Shown piece by piece: positions 52,038 to 62,514 of a stretch of DNA of 64,000 nucleotides. Location of the stretch: assembly GCA_016222805.1 (NCBI GenBank), contig JACRQG010000027.1, forward strand, positions 248,001-312,000, in the 5' to 3' direction. A program made the position numbers and the translations under genes. The notes under the pieces are model-generated. The model worked only from the letters and a program-made list of their open reading frames with translations. It was not told where the DNA came from and made no database searches. This DNA is from Verrucomicrobiota bacterium. GTDB taxonomy: Bacteria; Verrucomicrobiota; Verrucomicrobiia; Opitutales; Opitutaceae. Position 1 is the first letter of the stretch. Each line of letters starts with the position of its first letter.

Positions 52038-55000
52038 CTAGAAGGAGAATGTGTTTGTCAGGATGAACTGCCGCGGATCCTGGTAGCGGTAAGTCAGCGG
52101 GGCGAGCGTACGCGGGTGGACGTTGTTCACGATCAGTTCGCGCTGATCGAGGACGTTGTTGACGTTGAGCTGCACGCTCCAGCGCACCCGGCGTTTCAGG
52201 ATCGCCAGGGAGTAGCTGATCTGCAGGTCGTAGACGTTTTGGTCCTTGGCGCTGACCAGGGTGACGCGGTCGATGGTGCGGCCGTTCCAGGCGTCGGTGT
52301 AGTCGGAGCCCGGGGAAATCGTGTAGTCGGTGCGGGCGCCGGCGATGCGGCCGAGGCGGAAGCGGGTACCGGCGCCGACCGAGAGGCCGCGCAGCCAACC
52401 CTCCCGAAAGTCATAGCGGGTCCGGAGATTGAGGTTGTGCAGCGGGTCGCCGACAAAGCGGCGCCCCTCGAAGACCTTGGGGTTGTCGAAGAACAACTGC
52501 TCGGCGTCGGCGAGCGCCTCGTTGATCGAATCGGTGTTGATCGTGAAATCGCCGGTGGCGAGGATGTCGGCCGGGGTGCGCCAGTCGGTGGCGCTGGGGG
52601 CGAGATCGACGCCGGGAGTGGCGGGATTCTGGGTAAGGGAGTAGTTGGCGTACTTCTTCCAGTACGCCTTGTGGTGGTCGACGTACGCGCGGTACTCGGC
52701 GGCGATGTTGGTACGGGTCGTCCGGTTCTTCGCGTAGTTCACCGACAGGGACCAGGCCTCGGTGAGACGGCCGACCAGTTCGAGTTCGAGACCGCGGCTT
52801 TCGGAATCCTGGGTGTAGCCCTGGACCATGTTCATCACCTCGGCCTGGCGGCGGGCGAAGGCGGTCTCCTCGGCGCTGAGGCCGTTGGAGTTCGCGAGGG
52901 CGGTCCAGATGTTGACGATGTTGCTCTTGTTGAAACCGGAGAAGCCGAACTCCCGCTGGGAGACGGTGTGGAACTTCGTGGCGGTGAGGAAGAGGCGGCT
53001 GCGCAAGAGGGAGAGTTTCACGCCGTAGTCGGTGGTCCGGCCGGCCGGCGAGGGCACGAGGTCGGCCAGTGTGGTCTGGCGGGGATCGGCCGGGGTGAGG
53101 TAGTTGGTGCCCGGGGTACTGAGGCTGTTGGCGGTGTTGAAGAAGATCGAGGCCCAGGGGGTGACGTGCGCCACGCCGCCGAGGGTCCGGGTCTGGCCGC
53201 GAAAGACGTTGGGCCGCGCGGTGCTGGGATCGACGGGGATCCACACGCCGGTGTTGGGGGCGATGGCCTCGCCGGCGGGATCGCGGACGGCGACGCCGAC
53301 CCAGTTCTTCAGCCGATCCTGCCGGTAACCGAAGGTGCCGACGAGCCGGTTGCGGAGGAAGAAGGCCTGGGCGACTCCCATCCACGCTCCGGTGGAGCGA
53401 TCCGCGTAGCCGATGTTGCCCTGGGCGCGGTTGAACTCGTGGAGATAGACATCGGAGATCGCGCCGGTGCGCGGATCCTGGTACTTGACCGGGCCGCTGA
53501 GGTTGAGGGGCCCCGGAATCCGAAAATTGGGATCGTCCAGGACCGAGAGATCCTTGAGGTAGAAGCGCTGCAATGCCTGGTTGGCGCTGTTTTCGGGCGT
53601 GGCCACGAAGGCGCCGCCGCTGGCAAGCGAGGGCCCTTTCAACCAGTATTGCTGGAGGGTTTCGCTGCGGGTCTTGAGGCGGGCCATCTCCCCGAGCCCG
53701 GCGAGGCGCAGGCGCACCCAGTCGCGGTGGGCGCGTTCGTAGGAGACCGTGGCGCGGCCCTGGGTCACCTGCGAACTGGAGGGGCGGTGATCCGGCGAGA
53801 GGTCGAAGTAGTAGAGCTGGTCCGCGGGCTTGAGCTGGCCGGTGGGGAGGAAGCGGTTGGTGTCGACCGCGACGCCATAGTAATTCCACGTCGCGAGATT
53901 GTGGGTGTCGCCGCGGGAGAGTTGGCGGTTGAAGCCCAGCTCAAGGTTGAGATCGCGGGCGAGTTCGCGGGTGAGGAAGGCGGAGGCGTTTTGCACGCGA
54001 AAAAGGCCGCGGACCCAGTTGGCCTCGAGCACGGCCTCCGGATTGCGCCGGCCCATTTCGAAGTCGTTGGCGAGGTTGCCGCCGGTGCCGGCCTCGCTGT
54101 AGGTGAACTGCCGGTAGTTCTGGGCGTAGGGGAAACTCGGACTCACCACGACCCAGTCGCCGCCGGAGCGCTCCAGGACGCCGGTGACGGCCGTCGTGCC
54201 GGTGTCGCGCAGGGGCGTGCCCGGGGTGCCGGAAGCGCCGGTGCCGGGAGTGCCGGGAACGTAGGTGGCGGAGAAATTGTTGAAGATCGGGCGGCCGCTG
54301 GCCTCCCAGACGGACCTGAGATCGTTGGCGAAGAACGGCCGCGGCACGAAGCGGTTGATTTCCCCGTGTTCGAATTCGGCGCGCAGGGGGGTGCGGCGAT
54401 CGATCTGCCACTTGGCGGCGAGGAAGGCGCGATCCTGGTCGTTGTGGCCGGCCGCGCGCCATGAGGAGTCGCGGCCGCGGAGCACGACGGCGCGCAGGCC
54501 CAGGGTGTGGCGGAGGGGGGCGACGTTGGCATCGGCGATCCAGCGCTCGCCGCCCCACGAGTCGACCCGGCTGGTGACGGAGTAGGCGGCGCGGTCGGTG
54601 CGGGCCTGCTTGCTGGAGACGTTGATCTTCCCGGCAGGCGAGCCGAAGCCGAAGAGGATGGAGTTCGGGCCGCGGGAGACCTCGAGGCTCTCGGTCATGT
54701 ACAGGTCGACCTCGCCGGGCGCGGAGAAGAAATTGATGCTGCGTCCGCCGCCGGGGAGGCCGCGGATGCGGATGGAGCGGATGCCGTCGTTGTAACCATC
54801 GGCGACCGGGCCGGCGGCGCGGGCGTCGTCGGTCTCGATGCGGGTACCCACGCCGTATTCAATCGCCTCCTCGAGGTTGGTGGCGGCGATGTCGCGCAGA
54901 AACTCGGCCGTCATCGGACTGATGGCCGCGGCGACATCGCGCAGGTTCGTGCGCAGGCGGGACCCGGCCAGGGTGTCCTGGCCAACATAACCAGCGTCCG

Positions 55001-55139
55001 GGGCGGCGCTGACTTCAAACGGGGACAGCGTGACGACGGTCCCGCCGCCCGGTGCAATGGCCGGCGTGGTTTGGCCCCCGAGGAAGCAGGGGGTCGTCGG
55101 GAGGACGACGGCAAGGGCAAGGCGGCGGGCGAGGCGCAT
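52038..55139 (-). CDS. TonB-dependent receptor (divergent from LacI gene)
   Basis: A 1033-residue receptor with a signal peptide (LARRLALAVVLPTTPCFLGG). The TonB-box-like region is TVVTLSPFEVSAAPDAGYVG. The plug has RDVAAAISPMTAEFLRDIAA, then IRSIRIRGLPGGGRSINFFS and MTESLEVSRGPNSILFGFGS. The barrel ends QFILTNTFSF. It lacks a CarboxypepD_reg domain and is of the same general class as the receptor at 3215. The ATG at 55139 is chosen for the signal peptide. The 107-bp gap to the divergent LacI-family gene contains a likely LacI operator at 55230-55243, so it is probably controlled by that regulator. Confidence 0.93.
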   Translation of the reverse strand: MRLARRLALAVVLPTTPCFLGGQTTPAIAPGGGTVVTLSPFEVSAAPDAGYVGQDTLAGSRLRTNLRDVAAAISPMTAEFLRDIAATNLEEAIEYGVGTRIETDDARAAGPVADGYNDGIRSIRIRGLPGGGRSINFFSAPGEVDLYMTESLEVSRGPNSILFGFGSPAGKINVSSKQARTDRAAYSVTSRVDSWGGERWIADANVAPLRHTLGLRAVVLRGRDSSWRAAGHNDQDRAFLAAKWQIDRRTPLRAEFEHGEINRFVPRPFFANDLRSVWEASGRPIFNNFSATYVPGTPGTGASGTPGTPLRDTGTTAVTGVLERSGGDWVVVSPSFPYAQNYRQFTYSEAGTGGNLANDFEMGRRNPEAVLEANWVRGLFRVQNASAFLTRELARDLNLELGFNRQLSRGDTHNLATWNYYGVAVDTNRFLPTGQLKPADQLYYFDLSPDHRPSSSQVTQGRATVSYERAHRDWVRLRLAGLGEMARLKTRSETLQQYWLKGPSLASGGAFVATPENSANQALQRFYLKDLSVLDDPNFRIPGPLNLSGPVKYQDPRTGAISDVYLHEFNRAQGNIGYADRSTGAWMGVAQAFFLRNRLVGTFGYRQDRLKNWVGVAVRDPAGEAIAPNTGVWIPVDPSTARPNVFRGQTRTLGGVAHVTPWASIFFNTANSLSTPGTNYLTPADPRQTTLADLVPSPAGRTTDYGVKLSLLRSRLFLTATKFHTVSQREFGFSGFNKSNIVNIWTALANSNGLSAEETAFARRQAEVMNMVQGYTQDSESRGLELELVGRLTEAWSLSVNYAKNRTTRTNIAAEYRAYVDHHKAYWKKYANYSLTQNPATPGVDLAPSATDWRTPADILATGDFTINTDSINEALADAEQLFFDNPKVFEGRRFVGDPLHNLNLRTRYDFREGWLRGLSVGAGTRFRLGRIAGARTDYTISPGSDYTDAWNGRTIDRVTLVSAKDQNVYDLQISYSLAILKRRVRWSVQLNVNNVLDQRELIVNNVHPRTLAPLTYRYQDPRQFILTNTFSF

Positions 55140-55229
55140 GGGAAAAGGGGTGATGGGCGGGCGGCCGCGGGGCGGCGGCCTCCGGGAGAGCAAGATTGGC
55201 GGTTGCCGGGGTCGGGCAAACGCTGATTT

Positions 55230-55243
55230 GGTTGACGTAAACC
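55230..55243. promoter_or_regulatory. Candidate LacI-family operator
   Basis: GGTTGACGTAAACC is a 14-bp palindrome with one mismatched pair and a central ACGT, the classic shape of LacI-family operators with a central CG. It lies 3 bp before the LacI start and 91 bp before the divergent receptor start, so one bound dimer could control both genes. Confidence 0.58.
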
Positions 55244-55246
55244 CCG

Positions 55247-56302
55247 ATGAGCGTTCGCGCCCTTGCCCGCCAACTTGATCTCTCGCCGACCGCGGTGTCG
55301 CTGGCCCTGCGCGGCAGTCCGCGCATCTCCGCCGCGGTGCGCGCGAAGGTCCGGCGGGCCGCCCGGGCGGCGGGGCATGTCCCGAATGCCCGCCTGAGCG
55401 AGCTGATGCGGGAGGTGCGCGAGTCGGGGCGGCCCGGATATCGCGGCACGCTGGGGCTGATGTCGCTGTTTCCCGAGGAGGAGCCGTGGTGGCAGCGCCC
55501 CGGCTACGGCCACTTGGCCGAAATCCTGGCCGGGGCGCAGGCGCGGGCGGCCGAACACGGCTACAAGTTCGAAAATCTCTGGTTGAAGGGGCCCGGCATG
55601 ACCGCGCGGCGGCTGGCCGGCATCATGGAGGCGCGAGGGATTCGCGGCGTGCTCTGCCTGGGCAGTCTGGATCCGGAAGAGCCGTTCCCGGCGGCGCTGC
55701 GCCGGTTTGCGGTGGTGACGCAGGGCGCGAGCATTCCCGAGCCGATGCACCGGGTGGTGAGCCATTTCGTGGCGGACTCGCGCCGGTTGCTGACGGAGCT
55801 CGTGCGGCGGGGTTATCAGCGCCCGGGGCTCGTCATCCTGATCTCGGGGGATCGGCGCACGGACTATCTCTATACCGCGACCTTGTTGAGCTACTACGAA
55901 CGGATGCCGGGCCTGGCGCCGGTGCCGGTGCTCCGGGCGGAGCACTGGGACGAGGCGGAGTTTGCGGGCTGGCTGGCGGCGCACCGGCCGGACGCGGTGG
56001 TCCTGCACCAGAGCGACACCTATGTGGCCGAGGTCGAGCGCTACCTCGCGAGGCGCCGGGTGCGCATCCCCCGCGATCTCGGCCTCGCCTTGCTGGACAA
56101 GAATCCGAACCCGGAACGCTTTGCCGGCGTGTGCCAGGATCCCCGGCGCATCGGGGCGTCCGCGGCGGAACTGCTGCTGAGCCGGATCGCGATGGGGGAC
56201 TTCGCGTGGCCGACCCATCCCATCACAGAGTTGGTGCTCGGACGCTGGAACGAGGCGCGATCGTTGCGGGCGGCGGCGCGAACGACCCTGGCGCCCGCGT
56301 GA
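55247..56302 (+). CDS. LacI-family transcriptional regulator
   Basis: A 351-residue regulator. Residues 1-45 are the LacI HTH (SVRALARQLDLSPTAVSLAL, RGSPRISAAVRAKVRRAARA) and hinge. The sensor domain starts YRGTLGLMSLFPEEEPWW and has ILAGAQARAAEHGYKFENLW, IRGVLCLGSLDPEEPFP and YQRPGLVILISGDRR. It is divergent from the TonB receptor at 52038-55139, and the palindrome at 55230-55243 just before its start is its likely operator. No ribosome binding site is visible, because the operator occupies that place; a leaderless or weakly initiated transcript is possible. Confidence 0.92.
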   Translation: MSVRALARQLDLSPTAVSLALRGSPRISAAVRAKVRRAARAAGHVPNARLSELMREVRESGRPGYRGTLGLMSLFPEEEPWWQRPGYGHLAEILAGAQARAAEHGYKFENLWLKGPGMTARRLAGIMEARGIRGVLCLGSLDPEEPFPAALRRFAVVTQGASIPEPMHRVVSHFVADSRRLLTELVRRGYQRPGLVILISGDRRTDYLYTATLLSYYERMPGLAPVPVLRAEHWDEAEFAGWLAAHRPDAVVLHQSDTYVAEVERYLARRRVRIPRDLGLALLDKNPNPERFAGVCQDPRRIGASAAELLLSRIAMGDFAWPTHPITELVLGRWNEARSLRAAARTTLAPA

Positions 56303-56397
56303 GCGGGCGACCGGCCAAGGGTCCCGGGCAGGCACAAAGGGCTCGCCAGCCGGAGGACGGACGCCGACGATGACGGGTGCCGATTCGCGCCCGCCGC

Positions 56398-58101
56398 ATG
56401 TTGCCTTTTGCCCCTTTTTTCGCCCGTCGGACCCTTGGTGGTTTGGGTGCGTCGCGTCATGACGGATCGGCGTGGTTCGCCGGTGTGGTTCGGGCGCTGT
56501 GTCTTTCCGTCGGGCTCCTCGCGGTCGGCGCGCGGGCGGCGGATCCGGCGGTGACCTTCGTCGGGGTGGCGCTGGACGCGGAGACGGCGCGGGCCGACGA
56601 GAAGCTGCGCGAGTACCTCCGCGCCAAGGAGGGGTTGAAGTTCGAGCCGCGCGACATGGAGTACGGGGCGGCGATCGAGACCCTGGTCAGCTGGAACGTG
56701 GCGGAGCGCGGCCCGCTGATTGCGCGCGTGACTCCCTATGTCTACATGGTGGCGGAGATGCTGGGGGCCAATCTCGACATCCTCGGCACCTACGTCGGCC
56801 AGCGGACCCAGGAGACGACCTACGCGAGCTACTTCGTGATGCACCGCAGCTTCGGTCCGCGCGCGGATGACCTCGACGGCCTGGTCAAGTTTCTGCGGGC
56901 GCGGGCGAAGCCGGCGAGTTTTGCGTATCACAACAAGTTCAGCACCTCGAGCTACCTCCTGCCGTCGCTGTATTTCCGGCGCATGGGGATCTTCTCCGCC
57001 AACCAGGCCAACTCCCCGGAGCAGAAGCACGTCTTCATCCGCGCGGAGAAACCGCCCCAGGCCGAGGGCAGCAGCGATCTGGTGACGCTCGTGCGGCAGC
57101 GCCGGTACGATTTTGCCGCGATCTGGGAGGGCACCCAGCGCAAGTTTGCCGAGGACCCGGATCTGCGCTTCCTGAAATTGCCGAACATCCTGCCGAACGA
57201 CCTGCTGGTTTTCACCGCGATGCCGGACCGGACCCTGCGGGAGCGGATCGTCGCCAGCCTGCGGGCGATGCAGGACTCCGACATCAACGTGGGGGACTTC
57301 CTGAAGTGGCAGGATTTCAACGCCGCGCCGGAAGCGCGCCGCGCCCTCGCGTCGCTGCGGCGGCTGACGAAGTCGGCGCCGACGCCCGTGCCGATCAAGA
57401 TTCGCGGCGAGAACCGCGCCGGCGCGGAGGTTGATCCGCGGGTCTTCGAGGCGGCGCGCCAGGCGGTGCAGCTCTCCGGGACGGAGTTCGTGCTGTTCGA
57501 CGAGGACTTCCACAAGCAGTTCGATGTGCTCTGGACGCTGCGCAAGTCCCACGACGACTCGGTGGTGATCACCAGCGAGTATCCGGATTTCAAGCTTCCC
57601 CCGCAGCAGTTCCACATCAGCTACAAGAAAGGGGATCAGGAGAGCCTGGTGGCGCGGATTGAGGAGCAGATCTCGAACGGCATGCACCGGGTGCGCGACA
57701 TCTGGCCCTACGACGACGAGGTGCCCACGGTGCTGCGCGACGTGCGCTTCGGCCTGCCGGTGGGCAGCGATGTGCGGGCGGTGAAGATCACCTGGAACGA
57801 TTTCACCAACAACGACCGGGTGGTGGGCACGCCGTTCGACGTCGTGGTGGCGGAAAGCGATTTTCACGCCTTCAGGTTCAAGGTCGACGGCTTCCCGAAA
57901 CGCGCCGACGGCATCCACCTCGACTTCGATCCACTGAGCAACACCGTGCACCGGGTGATCCTCGTCCGGCCGGCGCCGGACACCCGGCTCTTCCGCGTCG
58001 GCACCTACCTGCTGGTGGCGCTGGCGCTGCTGGCGGCCGTTCTGGCGCTGCGCAGCGCGGGCCAGGGGGCCGGTCCCGTCCGCGCCTCCGGGGAGCGATG
58101 A
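56398..58101 (+). CDS. PhnD-like periplasmic binding protein with C-terminal membrane anchor
   Basis: A 567-residue protein. A signal peptide or TM segment (CLSVGLLAVGARA, residues about 34-48) leads to a PhnD/SsuA-type type II binding domain: VTFVGVALDAETARADEKLR, YASYFVMHRSFGPRADDLDG, SFAYHNKFSTSSYLLPSLYF and DFAAIWEGTQRKF. A second unassigned domain (about 330-530) is followed by one TM helix (LFRVGTYLLVALALLAAVLA) and a short cytosolic tail. Phosphonate-binding proteins normally serve an ABC transporter, but none is present. Instead the gene overlaps the PAP2-TIR gene by four bases (ATGA). The anchoring suggests a sensor. A GTG at 56377 is an alternative start. Confidence 0.8.
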   Translation: MLPFAPFFARRTLGGLGASRHDGSAWFAGVVRALCLSVGLLAVGARAADPAVTFVGVALDAETARADEKLREYLRAKEGLKFEPRDMEYGAAIETLVSWNVAERGPLIARVTPYVYMVAEMLGANLDILGTYVGQRTQETTYASYFVMHRSFGPRADDLDGLVKFLRARAKPASFAYHNKFSTSSYLLPSLYFRRMGIFSANQANSPEQKHVFIRAEKPPQAEGSSDLVTLVRQRRYDFAAIWEGTQRKFAEDPDLRFLKLPNILPNDLLVFTAMPDRTLRERIVASLRAMQDSDINVGDFLKWQDFNAAPEARRALASLRRLTKSAPTPVPIKIRGENRAGAEVDPRVFEAARQAVQLSGTEFVLFDEDFHKQFDVLWTLRKSHDDSVVITSEYPDFKLPPQQFHISYKKGDQESLVARIEEQISNGMHRVRDIWPYDDEVPTVLRDVRFGLPVGSDVRAVKITWNDFTNNDRVVGTPFDVVVAESDFHAFRFKVDGFPKRADGIHLDFDPLSNTVHRVILVRPAPDTRLFRVGTYLLVALALLAAVLALRSAGQGAGPVRASGER

Positions 58102-59327
58102 ACCCGGCGCGTCCATGGCTCCAGAGCCGGCTGCAGCTTGCCGTGCTGCTGGCGGCGGTGTTCGTGGCGAACTTCGTCGAGACCCAGCTCGAGGAGGCGT
58201 TCAAGCCGAGCGGCACCTATGCGCTGGGCTACCGGGTGGCCCAGGCTTTTCACGAAATTGAGGGCGGCTGGAATTTCACGGGGGCGGCCCGGGCCGACCG
58301 GGCGATGGTGGCGGGATACGCCCTGGCGTACTTTGCGCTGTTTCCGGTGCTGCTGGTGGGGACGGCGGTGGCGGCGTGGCGCCGGCCGACCGCCGGACCG
58401 CTCCGGGTCTTCTCCCTCGCGATCGCGCTGAACTACCTCCTGGCGTTGCCGTTTTTCCTGCTCCTGCCGGTCCCCGAGCGGTGGGCCTTCCCCGGGGCGA
58501 AGGCGACGCTGATGTCCGACCTGCTGAGCACGAAACTGATCGAACTCGTCCGGCCGATCAGCGGACTCGACAACTGCTTTCCCAGCATGCACGTCGCGCT
58601 CTCCTGCCAGGTCGTGCTGCTGGCGTACTGGAGCCGATCGCGATGGCGCCACAGCCTCGCGTGCCTCGGCGGCCTGGTGATGCTCTCGACCTTCTTCCTC
58701 GGCATCCACTGGATGCCGGACATGGTGATGGGGGTGGCCACGGCCGGCCTGAGTTTTGGCCTGGCGGTCCAGTGGAACCTCCGCTGGTACGGCGAGGGGC
58801 GGCCCGGGCGCAGCGGCCACGTCGGGCCTGCACCCCGGCCGCGGCCGGGCAGCCGCTCGCCGTGGCGCACCGCCATCCCGTTTGCCTTTCCGCGCCCGGC
58901 GGCGGGCAAACTCGTCTTCATCAGCTACCGCCGCGAGGGGGGATCCCGGCTGGCGCGGGTGGTGCAGATGGAATTGGAGCGGCGGGGGTATCCGTGTTTC
59001 CTCGACGTCGACGATCTCGGGGCGGAGCACTTCGATGAGCGGCTGCTGCAGGAGATCGAACGGGCACCCAACCTGGTGCTGGTCCTGGCGCCGGGTTCGC
59101 TCGACCGGTGCCGGCAGCCGGATGACTGGCTGCGGCGCGAGATCAGCCATGCGCTCCGGCACGGCCGAAACATCGTGCCGCTCCTCGCCGAGGGATTCCA
59201 CTATCCCCCGCTGGAGGAACTGCCCGCGGAACTGCACAGCCTGCCGCGACTGAACGGCGTGGTGTACTCCCACGAGTACTTCGGCGCGGCGTTCGACAAA
59301 CTCGAGGGCTTTCTCCGCCGGGAGTGA
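58098..59327 (+). CDS. PAP2-family membrane phosphatase fused to a TIR domain
   Basis: A 409-residue protein. Six hydrophobic segments (about 12-28, 70-93, 102-124, 164-178, 187-203, 208-226) form a membrane domain. It carries PAP2_3-type motifs NCFPSMHV (159-166, with PSMH at 162-165) and H204-x3-D208 (GIHWMPDMV), the pattern of inositolphosphoceramide-synthase-like or lipid phosphatases. A Pro/Arg linker leads to a TIR_2 domain at about 271-385: KLVFISYRREGGSRL, PCFLDVDDLGAEHFDERL, NLVLVLAPGSLDRC and DDWLRREISHAL. Glu348, in the W-x3-E motif, is at the position of the catalytic glutamate of NAD-cleaving TIR domains. Even TM number puts the TIR in the cytosol. It is coupled to the upstream PhnD-like gene. 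Confidence 0.85.
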   Translation: MNPARPWLQSRLQLAVLLAAVFVANFVETQLEEAFKPSGTYALGYRVAQAFHEIEGGWNFTGAARADRAMVAGYALAYFALFPVLLVGTAVAAWRRPTAGPLRVFSLAIALNYLLALPFFLLLPVPERWAFPGAKATLMSDLLSTKLIELVRPISGLDNCFPSMHVALSCQVVLLAYWSRSRWRHSLACLGGLVMLSTFFLGIHWMPDMVMGVATAGLSFGLAVQWNLRWYGEGRPGRSGHVGPAPRPRPGSRSPWRTAIPFAFPRPAAGKLVFISYRREGGSRLARVVQMELERRGYPCFLDVDDLGAEHFDERLLQEIERAPNLVLVLAPGSLDRCRQPDDWLRREISHALRHGRNIVPLLAEGFHYPPLEELPAELHSLPRLNGVVYSHEYFGAAFDKLEGFLRRE

Positions 59328-59376
59328 TTTCCTCCCGCGGCCCGGGAACCGCCCGCCTCGCCCCCTGAATCTCGCC

Positions 59377-62300
59377 ATGAACTCGCAATCCTTGTCTGGA
59401 ATCCTCCGCCGCCTGCTTGGGGTGGCGCTGGCCGTGGGCCTGTGGGCCCGCACCGAGGCGCAGCCGGCGACCGCCGGCATGATTGAAGGCCGCGTGTCCA
59501 ACTCCCGGACCGGCGACTTTGTCGAACGGGCGCGGGTGACCATCGCCGGTACGCGGCTCGAGACCTTCACCGATGCGACCGGCGAGTTCCGGCTGGCTGC
59601 GGTGCCGGCGGGGCCCGCCGTGCTGCGCGTGTTTTTCACCGGATTCGAACCGTACACCGCGACGGTGACGGTGGCGCCCGGGGTCACCGTCCGGCGCGAC
59701 GTGGTGCTGGGCGGTGCCGACGGGGCCGTGGTGAAGCTCTCGGAGTACGTGGTGGCCTCCTCGAAGGAAATGGAAGGGGCGGCGATCGCGATTCACGACC
59801 AGCGCTTCGCCCAGAACATCGTCAACGTCGTCTCGGCGGACGAATTTGGCTCGGTGCTGGAGAGCAATCCGGGGGATTTCCTGAAGTACCTCCCGGGGAT
59901 CACGATCGACTTCATCGGCGGCGCGGCGCGGTCGATCTCGATCGGCGGGGCACCGCCGGAGTATGTGCCGATCACCGTGAGCGGCTTCGACATTTCCAGC
60001 GTGGCGGGAGGCGGCACGGCGCGCAGCGTCGACTTCCACACGATCTCGATGAACAACATCTCGCGCCTGGAGGTCGTGCACTCGCCGACGCCGGAGTCGC
60101 CGGGCTCGGCGCTGGCCGGTTCGGTGAACATGATCCCGCGGAGCGCGTTTGATCGGGCGCGGCCGGTCTTCAACTACAGCGTGTTCCTGATGACGCGGGA
60201 CAACGACCGTCACCTGTTCGGCAAGACCCCGGGCCCGCGGTGGGTGAACACCCGCAAGGTGCACCCGGGTTTCGATTTCTCCTACATCAAGCCGGTCAAC
60301 GAGCGGTTCGGCTTCACCCTCACCGGTGGCAACACCAAGCAGTACACGGAGGAGGCGCGCACGGCCAATACCTGGCGCGGGGCCGGCTCGGCGACCAACG
60401 GGCTCACCGCCACGACCGCGGCGACACAGTATCCGGACACGACCCCGGAGCAGCCGTACCTGACCGATTACGTGGTGGAGGACGGCGGCAAGACGACGAT
60501 GCGCACCTCGGCGGCGGCCACGGTGGACTACCGGTTCTCGCGGCACGACCGGGCGTCGCTGTCCTTCGAGGCGACCTTCTACGATTCTCCGCTCAACCAG
60601 CGGAATCTCTCGTTCTTCGTCAACCGGGTCACGCCCGGGGACTTCACGACGACCTCGACCCGCGGCCAGGTGGGGCGCGGCGAGATCCGGCAGACCTCCC
60701 AGTCGCGCCACCATTCGCGCCGGAAGATCATGCCGACGCTGGTGTACCGCCATGACGGCCCGGTGTGGAAGGCGGAGGGTGGGGTGGGCTACGCCAACGA
60801 ACTGCTGACCTTCCGCAGCGGCGACAAGGGCTACCTGAACCAGGTCGTGTCGACGCGCCAAGGGGTGACGGTCGCTTTCGACGACACCTTCTACCTTCGG
60901 CCCGGCCGGATCACCGTCACGGATGGTGCGACCGGGGCGCCGGTGGATCCTTACCGGCTGGACAACTTCGTGCTGAGCACGGCCAACGCCACGTGGCGGC
61001 GGACGACCGACACGCGGCGCAGCGTCTACGGACACCTGCGCCGGGACCTCGAGGCCGGCGGCGTGCCGCTGGCGCTCAAGGGCGGCTTCGATGTGCGCCA
61101 GGCGGTGCGCGACGACTTCCAGCTCACGCCGGCCTACACCTTCGTGGGAGCCGACGGCCGGAGCAGCACGTCGCCGACGGCGGCGGGAAGCGACGACCGG
61201 GCGGACCTCCTTCTCGACGAGGTCTTCTCCCAGCGGGTGGCACCCTACGGCTTTCCGAAGATCCAGTACGTCAGCACGCAGGAGGCGTACAACCACCTGA
61301 AGGCGAACCCGACGTACTTCACCCTCGACCAGAATTCGACCTATCGCTCCGGCGTGACCAATTCCAAGCGCGCCGCGGAGACCGTCAGCTCCGCCTACGC
61401 GAGGGTCGACGCGGCGTTCTTCGATCGTCGCCTGCGGCTGGTGGGAGGGCTCCGGGCGGAACAGACCAATGTCGAGGCCGAGGGTCCGCTGAATGATCCC
61501 ACCCGGAACTACCAGCGGGATGCGAGCGGGCGGGTGATTCGCGATGCCGCCGGCCAGCCGACGCTGATCGTGCCCACGAGCAACGCGCTCGGAGTCTCCC
61601 AACTCACCTATCTCGAGCGCGGAATGCACGCCGAGAAGGAGTACCTGCGGCTCTTCCCGAGCGTGAATGCCAGCTACAGCGTGCGCGAAAACCTGATCGC
61701 GCGGGCTGCCTGGTATACTTCGGTCGGCCGGCCCAACTTTAACCAGTACGCGGGCGGGATCACCCTGCCTGATCCGGATCTGCCGCCGGCGAACAACAAC
61801 CGCATCACCGTGAACAACGCCGCAATCAAGGCCTGGAGCGCGCAGACGACGAAGGTGCGGCTCGAGTACTACTTCGAGGGCGTCGGGCAGATCTCGGTCG
61901 GTGCGTTCCGCCGGGAATTCGAGAATTTCTTCGGCTCGGTCATCTTCCCCGCCGCGCCGGAGTTCCTGGCCCTCTATGGTCTCGAGGCCGGCACCTACGG
62001 GGCGTTCGACGTCTCGACCCAGCACAACGTGTCGGGGACGGTGCGGATGACCGGGTGCGAGTTCGACTACAAGCAGGCGCTGACCTTCCTGCCGCGCTGG
62101 GCGCGCGGCGTGCAGGTGTTTGCGAACGCGAGTGCCCTGCGGGCGACCGGGGATGATTCGGCCGAGTTCGCGGGCTATGTGCCGCGATCCTTCAACTGGG
62201 GGATCAGCCTGTCGCGACCGACCTTCAACCTGCGGGCCAACTGGAACTATCGCGGCCGCAACCGGCAGTCGCCGCTGACCGGTCGCAGCATCCAGCCCGG

Positions 62301-62514
62301 GACGTTCACCTGGGGGGCGAAGCAGTTGTTCCTCGACCTGCAGGGCGAGTACGTCGTGCGGAAGGGGCTCACGCTGTTCGCCAACCTGCGCAACGTGGGG
62401 GATGCCACCAACGACACCGGGATCTACGGGCCCCTGACGCCGGCGGTCGCGCGGTTCCGTCAGCGCACCACCTACGGTTCGCTGTGGTCCTTCGGCGTGC
62501 GCGGAACGTTCTAG
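59377..62514 (+). CDS. TonB-dependent receptor with CarboxypepD_reg domain
   Basis: A 1045-residue receptor with a signal peptide (LLGVALAVGLWARTEAQ). The CarboxypepD_reg domain (MIEGRVSNSRTGDFVERARV) is followed by VKLSEYVVASSKEMEGAAIA. The plug has SADEFGSVLESNPGDFLKYL and RLEVVHSPTPESPGSALAGS. The barrel ends LWSFGVRGTF. It is clearly paralogous over its full length to the receptor at 25412-28930, but has no STN domain, so it is a transporter without signalling. The start is 49 bp after the PAP2-TIR gene, so readthrough from that unit is possible. A perfect hairpin follows the stop. Confidence 0.93.
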   Translation: MNSQSLSGILRRLLGVALAVGLWARTEAQPATAGMIEGRVSNSRTGDFVERARVTIAGTRLETFTDATGEFRLAAVPAGPAVLRVFFTGFEPYTATVTVAPGVTVRRDVVLGGADGAVVKLSEYVVASSKEMEGAAIAIHDQRFAQNIVNVVSADEFGSVLESNPGDFLKYLPGITIDFIGGAARSISIGGAPPEYVPITVSGFDISSVAGGGTARSVDFHTISMNNISRLEVVHSPTPESPGSALAGSVNMIPRSAFDRARPVFNYSVFLMTRDNDRHLFGKTPGPRWVNTRKVHPGFDFSYIKPVNERFGFTLTGGNTKQYTEEARTANTWRGAGSATNGLTATTAATQYPDTTPEQPYLTDYVVEDGGKTTMRTSAAATVDYRFSRHDRASLSFEATFYDSPLNQRNLSFFVNRVTPGDFTTTSTRGQVGRGEIRQTSQSRHHSRRKIMPTLVYRHDGPVWKAEGGVGYANELLTFRSGDKGYLNQVVSTRQGVTVAFDDTFYLRPGRITVTDGATGAPVDPYRLDNFVLSTANATWRRTTDTRRSVYGHLRRDLEAGGVPLALKGGFDVRQAVRDDFQLTPAYTFVGADGRSSTSPTAAGSDDRADLLLDEVFSQRVAPYGFPKIQYVSTQEAYNHLKANPTYFTLDQNSTYRSGVTNSKRAAETVSSAYARVDAAFFDRRLRLVGGLRAEQTNVEAEGPLNDPTRNYQRDASGRVIRDAAGQPTLIVPTSNALGVSQLTYLERGMHAEKEYLRLFPSVNASYSVRENLIARAAWYTSVGRPNFNQYAGGITLPDPDLPPANNNRITVNNAAIKAWSAQTTKVRLEYYFEGVGQISVGAFRREFENFFGSVIFPAAPEFLALYGLEAGTYGAFDVSTQHNVSGTVRMTGCEFDYKQALTFLPRWARGVQVFANASALRATGDDSAEFAGYVPRSFNWGISLSRPTFNLRANWNYRGRNRQSPLTGRSIQPGTFTWGAKQLFLDLQGEYVVRKGLTLFANLRNVGDATNDTGIYGPLTPAVARFRQRTTYGSLWSFGVRGTF

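Follow-up and report, generated by a model that had tools for sequence, protein, structure and literature searches.

A PhnD–PAP2 gene pair with exchangeable output domains: a candidate modular transmembrane receptor in bacteria

A 64,000-nucleotide stretch of a verrucomicrobial genome of the Opitutaceae (GenBank assembly GCA_016222805.1, contig JACRQG010000027.1, positions 248,001 to 312,000 of the forward strand), referred to here as the window and numbered from its first letter, carries two genes on its + strand that overlap by the stop/start sequence ATGA (58098..58101). The first encodes a PhnD-like periplasmic protein (56398..58101) and the second a membrane protein in which a PAP2 module is followed by a TIR domain (58098..59327). 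A preliminary description of the window, made from the letters alone, had reported both open reading frames (ORFs) and their overlap and had read them as a periplasmic sensor controlling a PAP2–TIR fusion. The ORFs and the overlap are confirmed by the analysis summarised here, which also finds that the pair recurs in several phyla and that its constant part is PhnD plus PAP2, TIR being one of several outputs. We consider it probable that PhnD and PAP2 together form a modular, bipartite transmembrane receptor with an exchangeable cytosolic output.

The first gene starts at ATG 56398 and ends with a stop codon at 58099–58101, encoding a protein of 567 amino acids; alternative starts lie at GTG 56377 and 15 codons inward, the latter implied by a 552 amino acid database copy (P0121). 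The protein has the Phosphonate-bd fold that marks the binding proteins of PhnD/phosphonate ABC transporters (Pfam score 36 bits, cut-off 27) and scores below the cut-offs of two equivalog models (TIGR03431, 12.3 bits against 261.1; TIGR01098, 24.4 bits against 112.05). PF12974 proteins are mostly transporter components. A crude hydropathy scan finds hydrophobic stretches at residues 27–45 and 531–549, and an AlphaFold2 model (predicted local distance difference test score 88.7) has helices at 24–43 and 530–555, bearing out the C-terminal transmembrane anchor of the preliminary description. The protein can be divided into an N-terminal hydrophobic helix that is either a signal peptide or an anchor (residues 24–43, 56467..56526), a bilobed binding domain of the PhnD/PtxB/AioX type (residues 48–327, 56539..57378), a second periplasmic part, tentatively alpha/beta and then beta-rich from the model (residues 330–525, 57385..57972), and a C-terminal transmembrane helix (residues 530–555, 57985..58062), all encoded on the + strand.

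The majority of structure matches to this model stop at residues 326–330, some extending to 438–480, and the top fold matches include ArrX, AioX and XAC2383, which are PhnD-type sensors. Neither the protein nor its 45-row profile matched the Protein Data Bank (PDB) by sequence at E 0.1 and 0.01, though the fold matches well. Within the binding domain lies the tripeptide S182-T183-S184 (56941..56949, + strand). Ser182 is present in the window, in all 23 loci looked at and in 123 of 123 readable relatives, and the full STS tripeptide is found in 104 of 126 relatives, three being unreadable. In PMC5908839, the ligand contacts of AioX and PhnD are given as Ser161 and Ser163 (AioX numbering), with Thr128 between them also making contact in PhnD. 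Read as a motif, the window tripeptide would be equivalent to the ligand-contacting S-T/N-S of these two proteins, and it is likely to bind an oxyanion.

The 409 amino acid product of the second gene (start at ATG 58098, + strand) scores above the Pfam cut-offs for PAP2_3 (37.8 bits against 27), PAP2 (33 against 27.2) and TIR_2 (45.8 against 28). Its PAP2 membrane module, the part common to the different output classes, spans residues 1–235 (58098..58802) and contains a complete catalytic set (R152, P162, S163, H165, H204 and D208), within which the PSMH motif (residues 162–165, 58581..58592) and H204-x3-D208 (58707..58721) are numbered correctly in the preliminary description, as is the TIR glutamate discussed below. 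The window protein thus carries both phosphatase signatures, PSxH and H-x3-D, which are not conserved throughout its own class. The six transmembrane helices of that description stand as likely only: crude hydropathy scanning finds three hydrophobic segments in the window protein and five in each of two relatives, whilst about six helices can be made out, with low to middling confidence, in the PAP2 part of one relative's model.

The TIR domain (residues 272–406, 58911..59315, + strand) resembles that of SARM1, the human nerve-death enzyme. Searching all of the PDB by sequence with the window TIR returns SARM1 TIRs at the top (E = 4e-31 to the human domain), the next kind following at E 0.0022, and local alignment with human SARM1 gives 44% identity over 133 positions. 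SARM1 residues R569, R570, D594, F603, L607, W638, E642 and H685 are identical in the window TIR, where they correspond to R278, R279, D303, F312, L316, W344, E348 and H392, whilst Gly601 of SARM1 aligns with E310. By alignment, then, the window TIR is of the SARM1 type and retains the catalytic glutamate (E348, 59139..59141, aligned with E642) and the tryptophan of the site for nicotinamide adenine dinucleotide (NAD; W344). E348 is unchanged in 36 of 36 aligned relatives, and the glutamate was read in 117 of the 120 proteins listed with a C-terminal TIR, the other three being short and unread by the script. For three N-terminal TIRs checked from other relatives, identity to SARM1 is no more than 19–27%. 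SARM1 itself is regulated by ARM and SAM domains and detects nicotinamide mononucleotide and NAD in the cytosol, whereas the window TIR is attached to a PAP2 module in the membrane.

A single scan across GTDB contigs gave 23 loci, 18 with a C-terminal TIR and five without. A PhnD gene lies directly upstream of the PAP2 gene at all 18 of the former and four of the latter, that is, at all 22 family loci L009–L030 (at L011 the contig carries just the PhnD end), and the 18 come from Verrucomicrobia/Opitutae, Nitrospina-type bacteria, two Nitrospirae or Nitrospirota and Methylococcaceae. The outcomes that would have spoken against the preliminary description did not arise: PhnD is linked to PAP2–TIR, and fusion with a C-terminal TIR, far from being an isolated event, defines a clade with members in several groups. 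The junction is ATGA at 17 of 23 family loci, window included, and GTGA at two, where the true start is possibly slightly further on; the remaining four genes follow closely. The fifth locus with another output (L031) stops inside PAP2 at a contig end, and a second contig of the same genome (L039) runs from the end of PAP2 into PhnD in a single frame, which suggests a fusion divided by assembly. The pair is present in one further genome (G068, locus L074) and at all ten loci of a sample from the phylum Nitrospinota, several of which are contigs already counted. No PhnD gene was seen beside the nearest outgroup PAP2 genes (124–142 bits against >280 within the family) in the flanking DNA of eight Acidobacteriota-group loci, this flank amounting to about 100 bases upstream at L081 and about 1.2 kb at L078.

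PhnD and PAP2 can also occur in one chain. Querying a database with the PAP2 portion of L028 returned 271 matches, and six of the 120 proteins listed are single-chain fusions: four with a kinase, one with a TIR (P0277, 966 amino acids) and one without an output that is probably cut at its start. In P0277 a hydrophobic segment (residues 422–440) precedes PhnD, as the topology demands. The model of a fused relative gave no usable contacts between the PhnD and PAP2 partners. That overlap, pair and domains recur across phyla means that the arrangement is not due to chance, and an artefact of antisense ORFs in a GC-rich window is excluded by Pfam matches, homologues and conservation of the + strand genes.

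What varies is the output. Amongst the 120 matches listed, outputs tallied from a precomputed Pfam column comprise 87 Ser/Thr kinases (86 with an HRDxKPxN-type motif), 17 CHAT domains, seven N-terminal TIRs, seven BTAD domains and one caspase, with one protein having PhnD only. The loci of the GTDB scan agree: L028 has a CHAT domain N-terminal to PAP2 (Pfam), and L029 and L031 have a Ser/Thr kinase in this position (by eye from the sequence and by Pfam, respectively). At L027 the output sits on the other partner, PhnD carrying an N-terminal TIR (L027:5631-8048) and PAP2 lacking the C-terminal one, whilst L030 has a bare PAP2 whose PhnD partner bears a C-terminal extension of about 270 amino acids (L030:9122-9943) without a Pfam match, possibly a further output domain. 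The seven BTAD proteins (SARP-type regulator joined to the PAP2 module; P0318, P0322, P0324, P0335, P0344, P0345 and P0350) are candidate membrane-bound transcription factors. In a tree of 91 PAP2 rows selected from both the C-terminal TIR and other-output sets (built by a quick method without bootstrap, with weak support at 32 of its 88 inner branches), the C-terminal TIR class forms one clade (23 rows; SH-like approximate likelihood-ratio test 100) and N-terminal TIRs fall at two places. Output labels change 11 times on this tree, against 51.7 in shuffles, and parsimony implies three separate fusions of TIR to PAP2. The constant part is PhnD plus PAP2, with TIR as one of at least five interchangeable outputs; a purely TIR-specific unit is ruled out by the other outputs in the family.

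No third gene is common to all loci, other clusters being clade-specific or antisense shadows. In the Nitrospinota, the gene directly upstream of PhnD encodes a protein whose middle part lies between a TPR-S domain (PF20308) and a class III nucleotide cyclase domain (PF00211). It is present at all 11 Nitrospinota loci of the scan (L010, L016–L018 and L020–L026; for example L021:6503-8290), twice as a partial copy at a contig end. The PAP2 family occurs in 12 of 77 genomes sampled from the phylum of the L020 genome, and a strong cyclase is found in 11 of the 12 PAP2–TIR carriers (G643 is cut by a contig end) against one of the 65 other genomes (G632, 313 bits; Fisher p 2e-11, uncorrected for relatedness). 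Amongst relatives of the window, a more distant TPR-S/cyclase protein is encoded elsewhere in the genome in four of six carriers against eight of 51 non-carriers (p 0.015, again uncorrected for relatedness), and the window's own genome (G000) has such a distant relative at C34:291444-293261 (L109, 264 bits). Compared with solved structures, the Nitrospinota protein gave seven matches for the cyclase domain and one for the TPR region, with none for the middle part, whose motifs suggest, tentatively, that it is SLOG-like. A relay from a TIR signal to the cyclase is plausible in the Nitrospinota, where the cyclase is co-encoded, but is not general, as no TPR-S/cyclase was found in the Methylococcaceae carrier or in five carriers with other outputs.

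In the receptor that we consider probable, the anchored PhnD-type protein would capture a small periplasmic ligand. This most likely bears an oxyanion group, as do phosphate, phosphonates and the phosphates of lipids or nucleotides. Once loaded, the PhnD domain would use its second domain and transmembrane helix to act on PAP2 within the inner membrane, passing a conformational signal to the cytosolic domain fused to PAP2. Such a topology is coherent: if PAP2 has six helices, effectors attached at either its N- or its C-terminus would lie in the cytosol. The receptor would remain constant whilst the output varies by lineage between TIR, Ser/Thr kinase, CHAT protease, caspase and BTAD transcription-factor domain; in the window the SARM1-type TIR, when switched on, would cleave or cyclise NAD, and in the Nitrospinota an NAD-derived signal may feed the co-encoded TPR-S/nucleotide-cyclase protein. 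The periplasmic sensor of the preliminary description thus survives in the conserved, sometimes fused pair with no transporter gene found beside it, and what changes is the definition of the unit, its TIR now being one output amongst several. A bolder version can be advanced only tentatively, its chances falling somewhat short of even: PhnD plus PAP2 would be a new receptor class in which a lipid-phosphatase fold transduces the signal, in some lineages without its catalytic residues, to outputs that include kinases and transcription-factor domains as well as those of immune type (TIR, CHAT, caspase); in the Nitrospinota a SARM1-like NAD signal would pass to a dedicated nucleotide cyclase in a two-messenger cascade.

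The distribution of the family is patchy, which fits an accessory signalling function, perhaps horizontally transferred. It is found in six of 57 close relatives, all in the window's genus (two further matches are weak and partial), and the only carrier in a sample of 288 genomes from the window's phylum is the window's own genome; another four samples, which overlap in part and of which three are centred on Acidobacteria-named loci and one on L031, contain 2/297, 1/147, 2/199 and 1/150 carriers (>280 bits), each counting its centre genome, and in most genomes only the best first-look candidates were scored. Patchiness of this kind (1/288 in the sample centred on the window, 12/77 in that on a Nitrospinaceae genome, and 1/147 and 2/199 in those on two Acidobacteria genomes) would also suit anti-phage abortive infection, in which PhnD and PAP2 detect a breach of the envelope as a phage enters or leaves the cell and the TIR brings about death by depleting NAD. 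Bacterial conflict systems typically use outputs such as TIR, CHAT, caspase and kinase, and PADLOC models are matched by the output domains of the family, the window pair giving matches in the TIR region only (≤38 bits, none spanning the whole protein) and none in the PhnD protein. Three neighbours were scanned in G633, a complete genome from the Nitrospinota, and one of them matches PADLOC's dGTPase model at E 2e-106; dGTPase-type enzymes are also common as housekeeping genes. A defence context is not supported at the window, however, with no PADLOC match at E 0.01 amongst six neighbours scanned there, nor in the one Methylococcaceae neighbour scanned. One PAP2 query found no match in plasmids and phages at E 1e-10, none of 26 pattern matches in viral contigs was confirmed as a relative, and the kinase and BTAD outputs suggest ordinary signalling. 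A defence role is possible, with little contextual support at the window, and abortive infection of this sort we regard as unlikely.

The PAP2 active site suggests another explanation, in which PAP2 is a periplasm-facing lipid phosphatase or transferase that frees phosphate or a head group, PhnD captures the product and the output reports lipid-phosphate turnover. The catalytic set is complete in all 120 proteins listed with other outputs and in 65 of the 120 listed with a C-terminal TIR, window included, and the unvarying Ser182 of PhnD would fit as well. Within the C-terminal TIR class, to which residue loss is confined, H165 is nevertheless lost in 49 of the 120 and H204 in five (four of them also lacking D208), one being unreadable; the changes are H165 to S, P or F, or H204T with D208G. 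They affect at least two sublineages, in the Nitrospinota (L017, L018, L020–L025) and in an Opitutae group (L012, L013, L015, L019), both of which keep the PhnD sensor and the TIR. Since the pair and the TIR glutamate persist, PAP2 turnover would not be needed in these proteins, and PAP2 would serve there as a transducer, with activity kept elsewhere. Sensing coupled to PAP2 enzymology we regard as rather unlikely. That the two products are unrelated neighbours, co-transcribed and acting separately in phosphorus scavenging and as a TIR toxin, is highly improbable: overlap within an operon could by itself give such an arrangement, and PF12974 proteins do usually serve transporters, but the six single-chain fusions, the TIR on the PhnD subunit at L027 and linkage kept across phyla all speak against it. 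So does the lack of a transporter gene beside the pair; as the preliminary description had noted, there is no ABC transporter partner, five window neighbours scanned with Pfam containing no ABC-transporter ATPase or permease domain. The transporter reading was rejected on the absence of partner genes amongst these neighbours.

Bipartite receptors built on a binding protein are a known kind, and the co-encoding of a PhnD-type protein with a membrane protein is shared with XAC2383 and AioX, the signalling function of the partner here being read from its domains. The partners differ: a diguanylate cyclase for XAC2383 and a histidine kinase for the AioX kind are replaced here by PAP2 with TIR, Ser/Thr kinase, CHAT, caspase or BTAD. 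We take the XAC2383 kind of sensor to lack the anchor and second domain, and presume that it involves no PAP2 module or exchangeable outputs. The arsenic-oxyanion sensors AioX (with AioS) and ArrX are likewise PhnD-fold oxyanion binders thought, according to PMC5908839, to signal via a membrane protein; their partner is a histidine kinase, unlike here, and the likeness seen in the pocket is that of the S-x-S motif. Thoeris (TIR protein ThsB with ThsA) likewise has a TIR output, and the third gene of the Nitrospinota could similarly receive an NAD-derived signal, but the window TIR lies below the family score (NCBIfam ThcB4, 32 bits against a cut-off of 220) and no ThsA (SLOG plus effector) was found amongst the window neighbours scanned, five by Pfam and six by PADLOC. 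The EACC1-caspase conflict system (Kaur et al. 2020, PMC7159879) is also a membrane system, is likewise encoded by two genes and draws on many interchangeable effectors, its constant parts being a single-transmembrane EACC1 protein and a caspase instead of PhnD and PAP2. The term PAP2 does not occur in the main text of two comparative papers on conflict systems, of which PMC7159879 is one.

A literature search, outside which most subscription papers and bioRxiv lay, found no description of a PhnD plus PAP2 receptor with exchangeable outputs, in keeping with the earlier impression that the combination is undescribed. The parts are known and there is a fair chance that their combination is a new receptor class. 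If so, it would be a modular outside-to-inside bacterial receptor for death- and immune-type effectors; to our knowledge, most bacterial TIR systems sense their triggers in the cytosol. The window protein would provide the SARM1 TIR with a bacterial relative gated at the membrane. A role would be found, too, for anchored PhnD-like proteins without a transporter and for PAP2 domains without the catalytic histidine. One sensor would be read out via a kinase, a protease, an NAD enzyme or a transcription factor, and the ligand could therefore be sought with whichever output is most easily assayed.

Pfam identifies the five window neighbours scanned with it as a LacI-type regulator, two TonB-dependent receptors, a sulfatase and a YdjM-like protein. 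The pair stands beside the TonB-dependent receptor genes (52038-62514), which may be coincidence, as may its position in G633 (L101) near genes that by eye resemble TonB/ExbBD.

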